Assembly (NCBI GenBank): GCA_030649205.1
Contig: JAUSGE010000021.1
Coordinates: forward strand, 1-39,078
Direction of reading: 5' to 3'
Source: a bacterium
GTDB taxonomy: Bacteria; Patescibacteriota; Patescibacteriia; Patescibacteriales; GWC2-42-12
Length of the DNA stretch: 39,078 nt
Each line of letters opens with the position of its first letter. Positions within the stretch are counted from its first letter, which is position 1. The notes under the pieces are model-generated. The model had not been told where the DNA came from and searched no databases. It saw only the letters and a program-made list of their open reading frames with translations. The position numbers and the translations under genes are program-made. This document shows, in pieces, positions 8,645 to 34,420 of this stretch.

Positions 8645-8796
8645 TCTACCTGGCTTTAGCCAGAGTTACTTAACGCCGGCTGAAGCCGGGTAGAAATAAT
8701 GCTTAACGCCAGTTGAAGCCGGGCAGAAAGAGAAAATAACGCCAGTTGAAGCCGGGCAGAAAGAGAAAATAACGCCAGTTGAAGCCGGGCAGAAAA
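8645..8796. repeat. One inverted unit plus a four-unit tandem array (33-bp period) of the TAACGCC(G/A)G(C/T)TGAAGCCGGG(C/T)AGAAA repeat
   Basis: Inverted unit TTTCTACCTGGCTTTAGCCAGAGTTA at ~8644-8668; direct units start at 8671, 8704, 8737 and 8770, each 33 bp apart. Confidence 0.9.
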
Positions 8797-8825
8797 GAAT
8801 ATTAATAATATCATAGCATTTTTTT

Positions 8826-10424
8826 ATGGAAAGTCCAGTCAGAAAAAAATCCATCGCCGAACTGCTAAAGAAAAAAATCAAGTCTCGCGCCGAGCTGATG
8901 GCGGTAAAGAGAATGCTGGCTAAGAAATACGGCCAGCCGCTTTTGTCAAATTCGGAAATTTTAAAAGCCGGCGTGGATAATTTATTATTGCGCCAGATTT
9001 TGCGCAAGCGGTCGGTGCGCACCCTGTCCGGCATCGCGCCGGTAGCGGTTTTGACCAAGCCTTACCCCTGTCCGGGCCAGTGCGCTTATTGTCCGACCGA
9101 GAAAGACGTGCCGCAGAGTTATTTATCCAACGAGCCGGCCGTGATGCGCGCTATCCGCTGTAATTATGATCCATATAAGCAGGTGCAGTCGCGCCTGCGC
9201 GCTTTGGAAGCCAATGGGCATGAGCCGACTAAGGTAGAATTGATCGTGATTGGAGGAACCTGGTCGGTATTACCGGAGGAATATAAGTATTGGTATATAA
9301 CTCAATGTTTTAGGGCGGCGAATGAATATGGGAAAATAAATTATAAATCCAAAATTCTAAATTCTAAACAAATCCAAAATTCTAAATTTAAAATTATAAA
9401 CTTGAAAAATAAATTGCTGAAAGAGCAGAAAAGGAATGAAAGCGCGAAGTACAAGCTTATTGGCATCACCCTGGAGACTCGGCCTGACTATATTAATGAA
9501 CAAGAATTGTGGCAGATGCGCGAATTGGGAGCGACGCGAGTGGAGCTGGGGGTGCAGGCGATTGATGATAAAGTTTTAGCAAAAAATAAGCGCGGGCATG
9601 GCGTTTTAGAAATCGCGCGCGCCACGGAAATGCTGAAAAATTTCGGTTTTAAAGTGACTTACCATATTATGCCCGGTTTGCCCGGCGCCACAGCCAAAAA
9701 AGATTTGGCTATGTTTAAAAAATTGTTTGCTGACCAGCGGTTTCAGCCGGACCAGTTAAAATTTTATCCCACGGTAGTAACGCGCGGCAGTCTCTTGTAC
9801 CGCTGGTGGCGCGCCGGCAAATATAAGCCATATTCAGATAAAGTTTTGCAGAATTTAATTGTAGCCTGCAAAAAAGTCGTGCCGCCGTATGTGCGCATTA
9901 TCAGGCTGATCCGCGACATTCCGGGCGAGTCAATTATGGCCGGCAACCGAATCACGAATTTGCGGCAGGTGATGAAAGCGCGCGGCGTAGTTTGTAATTG
10001 TATTCGTTGCCGTGAAGTTAAGGAACTACGAATTATGAATTATGAATTACGGATTTTAAAATATAAAGCATCCAGAGGTGAAGAATATTTTTTAAGTTAT
10101 GAATCTAAAGACACTCGGTGTCCCAATGGACACCGAGTGTCCACGGGCGGAAGAGTGCTTTACGGGTTTTGCCGGTTGAGGCTGTTTTCTGGTGGCGCCA
10201 TGATTCGCGAACTGCACGTGTACGGCGAATTAGTTTCTGTGGGAGGCAATAAAAAAATTCAGCACGCGGGTTTGGGAAAAAGGTTAATGCTTGAGGCGGA
10301 AAAAATTGCCAAAAATAACGGTTTTAAAACCATGGCAATTATCTCCGGCGTGGGAGTGCGCGGCTATTACCGGAAATTAGGCTATAGACTAAAAGATAGT
10401 TATATGATAAAAAGTTTGGTATAA
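8826..10424 (+). CDS. Elp3-like radical SAM + GNAT protein (tRNA uridine-34 acetyltransferase family)
   Basis: 'PYPCPGQCAYCPTEKDVPQSYLSNEPAVMRA' (CX3CX2C radical SAM), 'GVVCNCIRCREV', C-terminal GNAT 'HAGLGKRLMLEAEKIAKNNGFKTMAIISGVGVRGYYRKLGY'. Confidence 0.95.
   Translation: MESPVRKKSIAELLKKKIKSRAELMAVKRMLAKKYGQPLLSNSEILKAGVDNLLLRQILRKRSVRTLSGIAPVAVLTKPYPCPGQCAYCPTEKDVPQSYLSNEPAVMRAIRCNYDPYKQVQSRLRALEANGHEPTKVELIVIGGTWSVLPEEYKYWYITQCFRAANEYGKINYKSKILNSKQIQNSKFKIINLKNKLLKEQKRNESAKYKLIGITLETRPDYINEQELWQMRELGATRVELGVQAIDDKVLAKNKRGHGVLEIARATEMLKNFGFKVTYHIMPGLPGATAKKDLAMFKKLFADQRFQPDQLKFYPTVVTRGSLLYRWWRAGKYKPYSDKVLQNLIVACKKVVPPYVRIIRLIRDIPGESIMAGNRITNLRQVMKARGVVCNCIRCREVKELRIMNYELRILKYKASRGEEYFLSYESKDTRCPNGHRVSTGGRVLYGFCRLRLFSGGAMIRELHVYGELVSVGGNKKIQHAGLGKRLMLEAEKIAKNNGFKTMAIISGVGVRGYYRKLGYRLKDSYMIKSLV
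9345..9388 (+). repeat. In-frame 19-bp direct repeat inside the elp3-like gene
   Basis: AAATCCAAAATTCTAAATT at 9345-9363 and again at 9370-9388; related A/T-rich string near 29976-30006. Confidence 0.8.
10110..10141. repeat. Double-hairpin palindrome of the GGACACTCGGTGTCC family, inside the elp3-like gene
   Basis: GACACTCGGTGTCC caat GGACACCGAGTGTC: 14-bp perfect arms, each arm itself hairpin-forming (GGACAC-tcg-GTGTCC). Confidence 0.9.
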
Positions 10425-14458: not shown

Positions 14459-14573
14459 TGTCATTGCGGGCTTGACCTCGTCATCGCTACGCGAGATCTG
14501 GCGAAGCCACGACAATCCATAAACTTGTTTAGTGCGATGAATTCTGGATTCCCGCCTGCGCGGGAATGACAGA
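14459..14573. repeat. Mosaic dispersed repeat: left TGTCATTGCGGGCTTGAC, right GGATTCCCGCCTGCGCGGGAATGACA
   Basis: TGTCATT...AATGACA termini; right end contains hairpin CCCGCctGCGGG and matches 34390-34420. Confidence 0.75.
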
Positions 14574-16325: not shown

Positions 16326-16391
16326 TCTGGATTGCTCCTCGGCGCCGACCTCGGCGCCGAAAAGGAAAACGGGGAGCCTGCGCGGGAATGA
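16326..16391. repeat. Interrupted CCTGCGCGGGAATGACA-type repeat with a palindromic GC-rich insert
   Basis: TCTGGATT ... CCTGCGCGGGAATGACA (canonical TCTGGATTCCCGCCTGCGCGGGAATGACA) split by GCTCC-TCGGCGCCGA-cc-TCGGCGCCGA-aaaggaaaacg-GGGAG. Confidence 0.6.
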
Positions 16392-16435
16392 CAAAAAATG
16401 GTGGTAATGACAAAAATATATTAAAGGAGGGAAAA

Positions 16436-18307
16436 ATGTTTGACCATTCCGATCATTTACAACATGCCAGGAATTTTAAGGCAACCGTAACCCATTGCTA
16501 CAAAGATGGACAAGCCGGAGTTGTTTATCTGGAGTTTAGCTGTCCCGAGGGATTAGTGATAAAACCGGGACAGTTTATTATGCTGAAGCCGTTGATTTTA
16601 GGCGATTCGTTTTTTCGCGCCTTTTCTATCGCCGAGAGTATGGTGGAAGATTACCGGAGCTTTGGCATTTGGTTTAACATCAGAGGGCGCAATACCGAGG
16701 CTTTTGCCAAGCTGGAAATGGGGGACCGGATTGACGTACGCGGTCCTTTGGGCAAACCTATGCCCATAGACCCGGCCGATGAAAGTTATGTTTTTGTGGG
16801 CGGGGGCATAGGTATTTCCTGCTGTATGCTGCCGGCAAAAGAATTAGCCAGGAATGGAAAATCAGTAACCATTTTATTTGGCAATAAGAAAGGCTGGCCG
16901 CATGCCATTGACACTCTGCCAACTTCTTCCGGTTATTGCTGGATGGCGGTGGTGGAAGAAAATCTGGAGCAAGCCGGCTGTGCGGTAAAAATTATTACTG
17001 AAGACGGCCAAGGCGAGCACCATAAAGGCCTGGTTACTGACTTATTAGCTGAAAGATTATTAATTGACCAGGGTAAGTCTATAGTGGTGGCCTGCGGACC
17101 GGAGCTGATGTTAGAAAAAGTCGCTGACCTGGCCAAGGCCAGCGGCAACAAGTGCTATGTCTTTTTGGAAAGAAAGCTGGCTTGCGGGGTCGGCTCCTGC
17201 AAAGGCTGTCCGGTATTTTGCTTTGACGAGTCTGGCAATGAGATTGTTAAACATGTCTGCCTGGATAATCCTTTCAACGCCAGAGAAGTTAATTGGGGTA
17301 AGCTAATTCCCAAATACATTCCGGCGCCGATTGTGCCATATGCGCCATATAGAAAATCGCTTGCCGTTAATCCCATGGATACGGTTCTAATTGGCCAACA
17401 GGGCAGAGAACTGTATCTTAAATATCCCATTACCAACGGAGCCGGTTGTTTGAGTCTGCCGGCTATCAGGCAGAGCTTGGTTGACACTCGGAGGATCGGC
17501 ATGTATGAATCCAAGGGTGCTGAATTGCGACCCAGACTTGGCAATCCTGGCCCCAGAGTCGCGGAAACTTTTCATGGCATGCTTAACTCCATCGGCAGGG
17601 AAAGCGACGGGATTGATAATTTCATAAAGGAAGAATTGCCGCGATGGCTGGAACTTGGTAAGCCGGTTTCAGTAAATATTTCCGCTGACTTTGTTGGGGT
17701 GTATGGGTTGATCGCGGCTAAACTGGGGCTAACTTCGGTTGCGGCTATTACCTTGAATGTGAGCTGCCTGAATGTGGTAAAGCCGGGTGGCATTATGTTT
17801 GGCAAATCACCCGATGATGTCAGGGAAATCACGGCTTTGGCCAGAGAATCAGCGCCGGATAAATTTATAATTGTTAAATTACCGGCCGAAGCGGATAGAT
17901 TAATTGAAGTGGTCTTGGCCGCGAAACAGGCCGGCGCTGACGCTATGGCCTTGCCTAATACAATCAAGGGTATGGATGTTGACATCTGGACCAGGCGGCC
18001 GGCGCTGGCCAAAGTTACCGGCGGCTGGTCCAGCCCAGCGGTCTTACCGAAAACTTTGGCCGCGGTCTACGAACTGTATAGCGCCAAAATCGGTTTGCCC
18101 ATCATCGCCATGGGCGGCATATACCGCTGGCAAGACGCGGCCAAATTGATTTTAGCCGGCGCTAATGTAGTCGCTCCGGCTTCGCGGATATTTTCTAATC
18201 ATAATATCTTTAACGAAATATTCACTGGTTTATCCGGCTGGATGCGGCGGCACGGTGCCAGAAATATTCAGGATATGGTAGGAAAAATGGAGGTGCAAGA
18301 ATTATAA
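16436..18307 (+). CDS. pyrKD: Fused dihydroorotate dehydrogenase electron-transfer subunit (PyrK-like) + catalytic subunit (PyrD-like)
   Basis: N-terminal FAD/NAD module 'FRAFSIAES', 'VFVGGGIGISCCMLPAKEL', [2Fe-2S] 'LACGVGSCKGCPVFC'; C-terminal TIM barrel 'TNGAGCLSL...NVSCLNVVKPGGIMFG...FIIVKLPAE...MGGIYRWQDAAKLILAGANVV'. Start at 16436 with AAAGGAGGG RBS. Confidence 0.9.
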   Translation: MFDHSDHLQHARNFKATVTHCYKDGQAGVVYLEFSCPEGLVIKPGQFIMLKPLILGDSFFRAFSIAESMVEDYRSFGIWFNIRGRNTEAFAKLEMGDRIDVRGPLGKPMPIDPADESYVFVGGGIGISCCMLPAKELARNGKSVTILFGNKKGWPHAIDTLPTSSGYCWMAVVEENLEQAGCAVKIITEDGQGEHHKGLVTDLLAERLLIDQGKSIVVACGPELMLEKVADLAKASGNKCYVFLERKLACGVGSCKGCPVFCFDESGNEIVKHVCLDNPFNAREVNWGKLIPKYIPAPIVPYAPYRKSLAVNPMDTVLIGQQGRELYLKYPITNGAGCLSLPAIRQSLVDTRRIGMYESKGAELRPRLGNPGPRVAETFHGMLNSIGRESDGIDNFIKEELPRWLELGKPVSVNISADFVGVYGLIAAKLGLTSVAAITLNVSCLNVVKPGGIMFGKSPDDVREITALARESAPDKFIIVKLPAEADRLIEVVLAAKQAGADAMALPNTIKGMDVDIWTRRPALAKVTGGWSSPAVLPKTLAAVYELYSAKIGLPIIAMGGIYRWQDAAKLILAGANVVAPASRIFSNHNIFNEIFTGLSGWMRRHGARNIQDMVGKMEVQEL

Positions 18308-18381: not shown

Positions 18382-18400
18382 GTGGACACTCGGTGTCCAC
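18382..18400. repeat. Single hairpin unit of the GGACACTCGGTGTCC family (TCG-loop orientation)
   Basis: GTGGACAC tcg GTGTCCAC: perfect 8-bp stem. Confidence 0.9.
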
Positions 18401-18404
18401 GGAG

Positions 18405-19463
18405 TTAGTATTCTTTCATTTGCCAATTAAGCTGGCGCCCTGCCCATAACGGCACAATGCCATTATACTCTGCCGGTACAATACAAGGTTCACGCACGAG
18501 AACAATCTCATCGTCAGCCGGAGGCAAACTATAAATTCTTTCAGCGTTATAGCTGAAAAAATTATTCAACGCAGTTTCTCTAATGGGCAATCCGACGTTT
18601 TCCAAGCCCTGAATAATCAGCGGTATGCCGATATGTCCGGGAGCAAAAATGCCAACAGGGGGATCGGACATGGTTTCCTTTCGTTCTTTTAGGTGCGGCG
18701 CACAATCAGGCGTGAAGATAAGATTATCGTTATCTTCAGCGCTGACCGCGGTCATCAGCGCCAGACAATCCTCAAAATCTTTTAAAACCGGCCGGCAAGA
18801 ATAATGAGGATTAAATGAGCCTTGATCGCGCATATCCGCCCTGGTACAGCCCATATGATGCGCGGTAATGCCGCCAAACACATTGAGCGGCGCCTGCTGA
18901 ACAAACTGGAGCATGGGCCGACCGCTGATATGCTCAACGCCGATGGTCAGCCCGGGGAAATAATCAATCACGTCAGACAAATAGGGAATAGACAATTCTT
19001 CCCTAAGCGGCAGAGGAATATCTTTGCCGGTTAAAGGATTATATGGCAATTCCCAATGACCGGTAAAAATCATTCGCAATTCCAGGGCTCTTTCCAGTAC
19101 ATCGTACTTTTCCCGCAATTTTTCCAGCCTGACGCCGAACTGCGAGTTAGTAGTAGTGCCGAAAGGCTGGTACTTCAAAACGTCGGCGCCGGCCTCATGG
19201 CACTCTTCCAACAGATCCGGCATCATGTCCTCAGTAAGCATAACTGACAAAAGAAATTTGAAGCTAATATTGTTAGCTTCAATTTCCTCGCGTCGCCTTC
19301 TAACTTGCTCCGGCGACTTGATTGGTATTAATAAATTACCGATATCCAATACCCAGCCGTAGATATTGGAAAACATGACAACTAACTTCAGTAGATCGTC
19401 TTGGCGCAAATGAATATGCATGCCCTTTGGCCGGCGCAACCGCAACAAATTTATAAGACCCAT
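18405..19463 (-). CDS. pyrC: Dihydroorotase (class II-like)
   Basis: 'GMHIHLRQDDLL' (HxH), 'VLKYQPFGTTTNSQFGV' (carboxylated Lys region), 'FTGHWEL', 'VEHISG', 'FTPDCAPH'. Confidence 0.9.
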   Translation of the reverse strand: MGLINLLRLRRPKGMHIHLRQDDLLKLVVMFSNIYGWVLDIGNLLIPIKSPEQVRRRREEIEANNISFKFLLSVMLTEDMMPDLLEECHEAGADVLKYQPFGTTTNSQFGVRLEKLREKYDVLERALELRMIFTGHWELPYNPLTGKDIPLPLREELSIPYLSDVIDYFPGLTIGVEHISGRPMLQFVQQAPLNVFGGITAHHMGCTRADMRDQGSFNPHYSCRPVLKDFEDCLALMTAVSAEDNDNLIFTPDCAPHLKERKETMSDPPVGIFAPGHIGIPLIIQGLENVGLPIRETALNNFFSYNAERIYSLPPADDEIVLVREPCIVPAEYNGIVPLWAGRQLNWQMKEY

Positions 19464-19579
19464 GTTCAGCCTCCTTATGATAAAATGTTAAAAAATAAAA
19501 GGAGCAAACTTCCCCCTCTTTGACGGTAAAATTTTTGTCTGTTAATCTTAAGGTAGATTATTTTAATTTTTTTGTCAAA

Positions 19580-20233
19580 ATGCGCAAGTTTCAGTTTCAA
19601 AGCGGCGAATATTATCATATTTACAACCGCGGGGTTGAAGCGCGGGATATTTTTGCCGACAACTATGACTATTTGAGATTTTTAAGAAGCATGCGGGAGT
19701 TTAACAGATTAGAAGCTATTGGCAGCATATATGAGCTAGACAATCTGCGAAAAAAAGAAAGGACACTCGGTGTCCATATGGACACCGAGTGTCCACCGGC
19801 CGTTGATTTCATAAGTTATTGCTTGAATCCAAATCATTATCATTTTTTGTTAGGCCAAACAGCCGAAGGAGGGATAGAAAAATTCATGCATAAATTAAGC
19901 ATGGGGTATGCAAAGTATTTCAATGAAAAATATTCCCGTTCCGGCTCGCTGTTTCAAGGCGCTTATAAAGCTATTCATGCTGATAATTACGGCTATCTGT
20001 TAAAATTGTTAGTATACGTAAACTGCAACCATGAAATCCATAATTTAGGCAAAACGGAAAATTGGCCGTGGGCCAGCTATTTGGACAGCGTCGGCATGAG
20101 AAGCGGCAACTTGTGCAATTTAGACATTGTCAGGGAGGAATTCGGAGAGTCGGAAAATTTTAAATCGTTTTGCCAAGAAATTATACCGGACATAAAAGAG
20201 AATAAAGTTTTAAAGAAATACTTACTTGAGTAA
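19580..20233 (+). mobile_element. REP-associated tyrosine transposase (RAYT, IS200-like Y1/HUH transposase)
   Basis: 'RKFQFQSGEYYHIYNRGVEARDIF', HUH motif 'YCLNPNHYHFLLGQ', 'YAKYFNEKYSRSGSLFQGAYKAI'. ATG at 19580 is in frame with the track ORF (19520). Confidence 0.92.
19761..19794. repeat. Perfect 34-bp double-hairpin palindrome inside the RAYT ORF
   Basis: GGACACTCGGTGTCCAT|ATGGACACCGAGTGTCC, 17+17 bp perfect; encodes ERTLGVHMDTEC in frame. Confidence 0.95.
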
Positions 20234-20235
20234 AT

Positions 20236-20252
20236 TGGACACCGAGTGTCCA
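20236..20252. repeat. Single hairpin unit of the GGACAC family (CGA-loop orientation) just after the RAYT stop
   Basis: TGGACAC cga GTGTCCA: perfect 7-bp stem starting 3 bp after the TAA, opposite orientation to the copy at 18382. Confidence 0.93.
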
Positions 20253-29901: not shown

Positions 29902-29942
29902 CAAGGAAATTTTTGATTTACGATTATTGATTGGCGATTTAA

Positions 29943-29969
29943 TAACGCCGGCTAAAGCCGGGCAGAAAT
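29943..29969. repeat. Single copy of the TAACGCCGGCTAAAGCCGGGCAGAAA repeat between tRNA genes
   Basis: TAACGCCGGCTAAAGCCGGGCAGAAAT, same unit as the 8645-8796 array. Confidence 0.85.
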
Positions 29970-30018
29970 AAATAAATTTAAAATCTAAAATCCAAAATCA
30001 CAAATCGGAAATATTTTT

Positions 30019-34389: not shown

Positions 34390-34420
34390 TTTCTGGATTC
34401 CCGCCTGCGCGGGAATGACA
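34390..34420. repeat. TTCTGGATTCCCGCCTGCGCGGGAATGACA dispersed repeat
   Basis: Hairpin CCCGC ctg(c) GCGGG; translated as 'CHSRAGGNPE' on the minus strand. Confidence 0.85.

Follow-up and report, generated by a model that had tools for sequence, protein, structure and literature searches.

Matched hairpins at fixed positions within and beside a Y1/HUH transposase gene of Patescibacteria

In Patescibacteria, bacteria with tiny genomes, genes for a Y1/HUH transposase carry what appears to be their own cognate hairpin in as many as four fixed positions: ahead of the start codon, in a linker just ahead of the HUH motif (slot 1), in a region about 75 residues past that motif (slot 2), and after the stop codon. 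The reading that we favour, with a probability of about 0.55, is a variant of the REPtron whose cognate hairpin is housed in fixed linkers encoded by the gene and changes together with the flanking copies. The anatomy of the gene is well supported. As to mechanism, the best fit is an enzyme that maintains its recognition site as a tag in its own gene, every biochemical step of this being one that we infer.

The window, by which we mean the whole 39,078-nucleotide stretch analysed, holds a perfect palindrome of 34 bp (17-bp arms, gap 0) in frame within the transposase ORF, where it encodes the peptide RTLGVHMDTECP. The repeat unit of this palindrome family is GGACACTCGGTGTCC, and two further 15-nt units lie at 18384-18398 and 20237-20251, with arms that extend to 18382-18400 and 20236-20252, respectively. 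The features that concern us are as follows.

19580..20233, + strand: RAYT-like Y1/HUH transposase gene, 217 aa, with HUH residues H86/H88 and candidate nucleophile Y146
19761..19794, no strand assigned: slot 1, an in-frame double hairpin whose perfect palindrome occupies the linker that leads into the HUH strand; DNA fold -19 kcal/mol, z -7.4
20236..20252, - strand: 3' flanking single hairpin unit of the slot 1 family, 2 bp past the stop codon (TAA); DNA fold -5.8 kcal/mol, z -3.5
18382..18400, + strand: dispersed single copy; its two neighbours, a pyrKD-like gene and pyrC, are convergent
10109..10142, no strand assigned: dispersed double copy, in frame within elp3 (8826-10424; ELP3 NCBIfam TIGR01211, E 6.6e-160)

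A preliminary description of this DNA had the sequence and coordinates of the palindrome and of both single units right, the gap to the stop codon being 2 bp. It had also treated the 18382 copy, with pyrC in between, as a partial upstream flank of the transposase; this is indeed a real unit beyond pyrC, but it lies between two convergent genes, need not belong to the transposase unit and probably does not. The window gene itself has a flanking hairpin at its 3' side only.

The hairpin unit of the window is a real repeat family, beyond chance. Eleven matches with at most three mismatches occur in the window against 0.29 expected, a number reached by none of 100 shuffles, and the genome-wide search that had been proposed returned 116 matches (58 + 58, at most two mismatches) in the 1.2-Mb genome, compared with 1 (0 + 1) for a reversed-pattern control. 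The stretches around the genome matches listed contain 56 elements, most of them head-to-head doubles, with 106 units in all. The earlier suggestion of a REP/BIME-like family tied to a RAYT-like transposase is borne out. The protein has a match to Pfam Y1_Tnp (PF01797) at 28.3 bits against a cut-off of 23, and an AlphaFold2 model (pLDDT 90, 38 sequences as input) whose closest PDB fold is 4er8, a RAYT with its REP hairpin bound (E 5e-5). The ORF spans 19520-20233 with a likely start at 19580, and H86, H88 and Y146 are invariant across the family alignment (A2). In the model slot 1 forms the loop 64-74, between the helix 50-63 and the strand 75-83, in agreement with the proposal that the in-frame segment occupies a tolerated loop just before the HUH motif; slot 2 corresponds to a loop region past the helix bearing the invariant tyrosine 146. 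A PDB search by sequence profile gave no match for the transposase, NCBIfam and PHROGs contained no named family for it, and no relatives were found in viral contigs. At the sequence level the gene is present in a single copy in its genome; a candidate second, degenerate RAYT copy at C19:3259-3393 was rejected, the match being essentially the palindrome plus chance flanks.

The preliminary description regarded a palindrome inside the transposase gene as an unusual, one-off insertion, a view that did not survive comparison with homologues. A protein search of 60 relatives yielded more family members, nearly all with a near-perfect in-ORF palindrome of differing sequence, and a scan of public genomes added 78 loci, every named record of which was patescibacterial (Falkow-, Moran-, Giovannoni-, Zambryski-, Nomura-, Yanofsky-, Campbell- and Niyogibacteria among others). 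In the resulting sample of 91 non-redundant homologue genes from Patescibacteria the best inverted repeat was scored per 100-nt window, the windows being set relative to the HUH motif and the threshold at 8 or above. An in-ORF hairpin was present in 77 of the 91 genes, at slot 1 in 71% and at slot 2 in 36%, and hairpins lay directly 5' of the start in 76% and directly 3' of the stop in 79%, whereas the corresponding rates were 1.1-4.4% in four control windows within these ORFs and 2.4-4.6% in dinucleotide shuffles. Slot 1 centres fall mostly 14-23 residues N-terminal of the HUH motif; those of slot 2 lie, in many genes, exactly +74.5 residues from it. Between NRG and HUH there are, in the median, 68 residues in genes lacking a slot 1 hairpin, 70 where that hairpin is single and 75 where it is double; the hairpins substitute for linker sequence more than they extend it. 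A function of the slot-encoded loop at the peptide level was considered and rejected, as the slot 1 hairpin centre falls in varying codon phases and the peptides are unrelated. DNA structure, and not protein function, appears to dictate the amino-acid sequence of these loops.

A quick tree, rooted on distant sequences, places all 91 genes in a single, fully supported clade, within which slot occupancy is patchy, parsimony requiring at least 23 changes for slot 1 and at least 15 for slot 2. In the outgroup homologues, which are plasmid-borne, the slot 1 loop is short, and only one of seven (L218, score 10) contains an in-ORF inverted repeat scoring at least 9. The preliminary description had looked to the orthologues to tell a recent insert from an ancient segment, and both parts of the answer matter: most homologues do carry a segment at the same place in unrelated DNA, yet that segment is still a palindrome and matches the hairpins flanking its own gene. 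The slot is thus an old, maintained site and not a recent accident. Two loci deserve separate mention. In L204 (G040:C41:6284-6517) the ORF of a different Y1 transposase has a 34-nt perfect palindrome in open frame, maybe in an upstream extension, and the family member L053 / L057 (G055:C5) lacks the entire segment that runs from slot 1 to the end of the HUH motif, yet its frame is kept, possibly through a deletion occurring at the slot.

Hairpins at different positions of the same gene share a median run of 19.5-21 nt, and 71-84% share 12 nt or more, whereas hairpins of different genes share a median of 5 nt, with 3-6% sharing 12 or more. In L065, L067, L118, L134, L115 and L121 the hairpins of all four positions match. 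Paralogues within a genome mostly differ in their hairpins (median shared 5.5 between genes versus 16.5 within), indicating that the hairpin belongs to the gene and not to the genome. Turnover is fast, protein pairs at 45-55% identity sharing a median of 4 nt. Enzymes that act on single-strand hairpins are strand-specific; the scorable pairs of 5' and 3' hairpins comprise 24 inverted, 15 direct and 3 symmetric ones. A GTAG guide is not enriched at the feet of the hairpins (11 of 215, against about 15 expected), and identity as a GTAG-type REP was ruled out, as the tetranucleotide shows no enrichment 5' of the palindromes.

Outside the transposase genes, 17 in-ORF palindromes joined into one query gave matches in each of the 14 genomes searched, most of them belonging to the type of that genome or of its genus. 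The relatives hold from about 1 to about 10 dispersed elements per genome; that of the window is the richest, with 56. Within 10 kb of the transposase gene its own units occur at 0.20 per 10 kb, compared with 0.027 for units of other species. Only 9 of 50 testable loci have another own copy inside a distance of about 10 kb, so that many hairpins seem private to their transposase gene. In the window genome about 20 of the 56 elements are in frame within other genes, which include pheT (twice), dnaX, recO, a PGI-like gene, dus, a UvrD/PD-DExK protein gene and elp3; such in-frame palindromes in housekeeping genes are found at 10109-10142 of the window and on contigs C1, C17, C24, C32, C34, C36, C37, C40 and C41 of G000.

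It could be argued that the slots reflect neutral, selfish insertion, in which palindromes land anywhere, in-frame copies survive in tolerant loops, and the transposase is just one target, as with the Rickettsia palindromic elements. The in-frame elements in other genes fit this view, as does the finding that PheT orthologues have neither of the palindrome copies, and REPs within genes have been published (PMC3733652). The density of own units near other genes, however, predicts about 0.013 per transposase ORF where 77 of 91 genes were found to have one; moreover, positions as constant as that of slot 2, and paralogues that keep differing hairpins, are not what indiscriminate landing would produce, and we consider this explanation unlikely. 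The preliminary description had raised a different possibility, autoregulation through a hairpin in the transposase mRNA. In the form considered here, the hairpins fold in that mRNA and the transposase protein or a nuclease acts on them to limit the enzyme's own synthesis. Consistent with this, the 5' hairpins lie directly upstream of the start codon, the in-ORF hairpins are within the transcript, and mRNAs of IS200-type transposases are repressed by structure, according to work cited in PMC3733652. The same element is, however, dispersed as DNA, also within unrelated genes.

Among 19 slot 2 hairpins at one fixed position 97.4% of cells are paired and 7 of 10 pairs have changed on both sides. 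The changes comprise 37 two-sided and 0 one-sided events, against a shuffled mean of 10.6 two-sided, a comparison whose significance is overstated because the 19 sequences are related; sliding the partner abolishes the pairing. These stems show zero G-U intermediates, and in all in-ORF stems together 1058 of 1074 pairs are Watson-Crick and 1 is G-U, although the inverted-repeat score treats G-U as a mismatch and is thus biased against detecting it. RNA hairpins tolerate G-U pairs. The near-absence of such pairs therefore favours one of three things: identity at the level of DNA, rewriting driven by the enzyme, or correction through template switching. The slot 2 covariation points to DNA rather than RNA. 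The autoregulation idea is weakened accordingly, and we regard it as quite improbable. It may also be that replication-fork template switching passively perfects an existing palindrome, generating covariation with neither selection nor an enzyme; perfect arms, two-sided changes, the lack of intermediates and mixed orientation are all as such correction would leave them. It would not account for the sharing of sequence among separate positions of one gene, for the 85% occupancy of in-ORF slots, or for the rarity of hairpins among the non-slot Y1 genes that these genomes also contain (1 of 13), and it is very improbable.

Under the REPtron variant that we prefer, the hairpin would be the enzyme's single-strand DNA recognition site, and exchange between copies, either by template switching or because the enzyme cuts and rejoins them, would rewrite all positions jointly as specificity drifts. 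Because the internal copies occupy loops tolerant of many peptides, the recognition site would be kept physically inseparable from the gene that needs it. In support of this reading, the hairpins are fixed in position, in frame, self-complementary, matched within a gene and mismatched between genes, their stems covary with no G-U intermediates, and the element is dispersed in several genomes; counting against it are the mixed orientation, the lack of GTAG, the patchily empty slots and the small fraction of loci with a nearby copy. A bolder proposal, which we offer tentatively, is that in this transposase lineage the recognition site within the coding sequence serves as a private identity tag, the enzyme recognizing, copying and repairing its own hairpin. 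If so, recombination or transfer could not part the specificity of the enzyme from its target sequence, and each gene could found a new repeat family wherever it lands. The system bears on the open question of how REP families and their RAYTs remain matched as each of them evolves. Dozens of diverged lineages have an apparent target at a constant position within the gene, so a single gene reveals a candidate enzyme together with its target, and such pairs could be swapped in vitro. The in-frame palindromes of housekeeping genes, known from Rickettsia, become tied to a candidate enzyme.

RAYT genes flanked by REPs with which they co-evolve have been published (PMC2817692), as have REPtrons and REPs within genes of several species, including Rickettsia conorii (PMC3733652), and the determinants of REP recognition (PMC8266576). 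Similar to the REPtrons (RAYT / TnpA-REP) of these three studies, the system described here combines a Y1/HUH enzyme and catalytic tyrosine with palindromes at both gene ends that co-evolve with the gene and a nearest fold that is itself a RAYT (4er8); dispersed cognate copies may be a further common trait, at 56 elements in the window genome but about 1 to about 10 in each relative. It differs in that hairpins are located inside the ORF at fixed slots, in having YxNxNxxIH in place of the RAYT motif NP(L/V)(R/K)xG beside the tyrosine (motif as given in PMC2817692), in lacking the GTAG guide, in its additional linker before the HUH strand, and in flanking copies that are not always inverted. 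With the Rickettsia palindromic elements and intragenic REPs (PMC3733652) it shares short in-frame palindromes within housekeeping and otherwise unrelated protein genes, missing from orthologues such as those of PheT; here, however, the same genome encodes a candidate enzyme, whose gene is consistently occupied at conserved positions. IS200/IS605 elements likewise have a Y1/HUH transposase and hairpins at both gene ends, in contrast with the mixed hairpin orientation and extra in-ORF copies seen here, where no guide or cleavage site was identified. In-gene REPs and RAYT-REP co-evolution are thus already known, whereas we did not find the fixed internal slots described: the main texts of open-licence papers yielded no description of fixed-position hairpins within RAYT ORFs or of REPs in Patescibacteria, which is not proof of novelty.

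Other repeats were seen alongside this family. A second in-frame family, encoding peptides of the type TPLIPLYKGDK...NPPFKRGAGGL, interrupts two of the proteins that also carry the palindrome, L169 (pheT) and L147 (UvrD-like), and pheT orthologues are without it. The window also contains tandem 33-nt GC-rich hairpin repeats (TAACGCCAGTTGAAGCCGGGCAGAAA) at 8669-8812 and 29941-29985, which form a separate family, and, at 14542-14571 and 34391-34420, two identical 30-nt stretches of TTCTGGATTCCCGCCTGCGCGGGAATGACA, which represent a further dispersed hairpin family. Adjoining pyrC, one ORF of 639 aa (16388-18307) fuses a PyrK-like FAD/Fe-S electron-transfer part to dihydroorotate dehydrogenase (PyrD).
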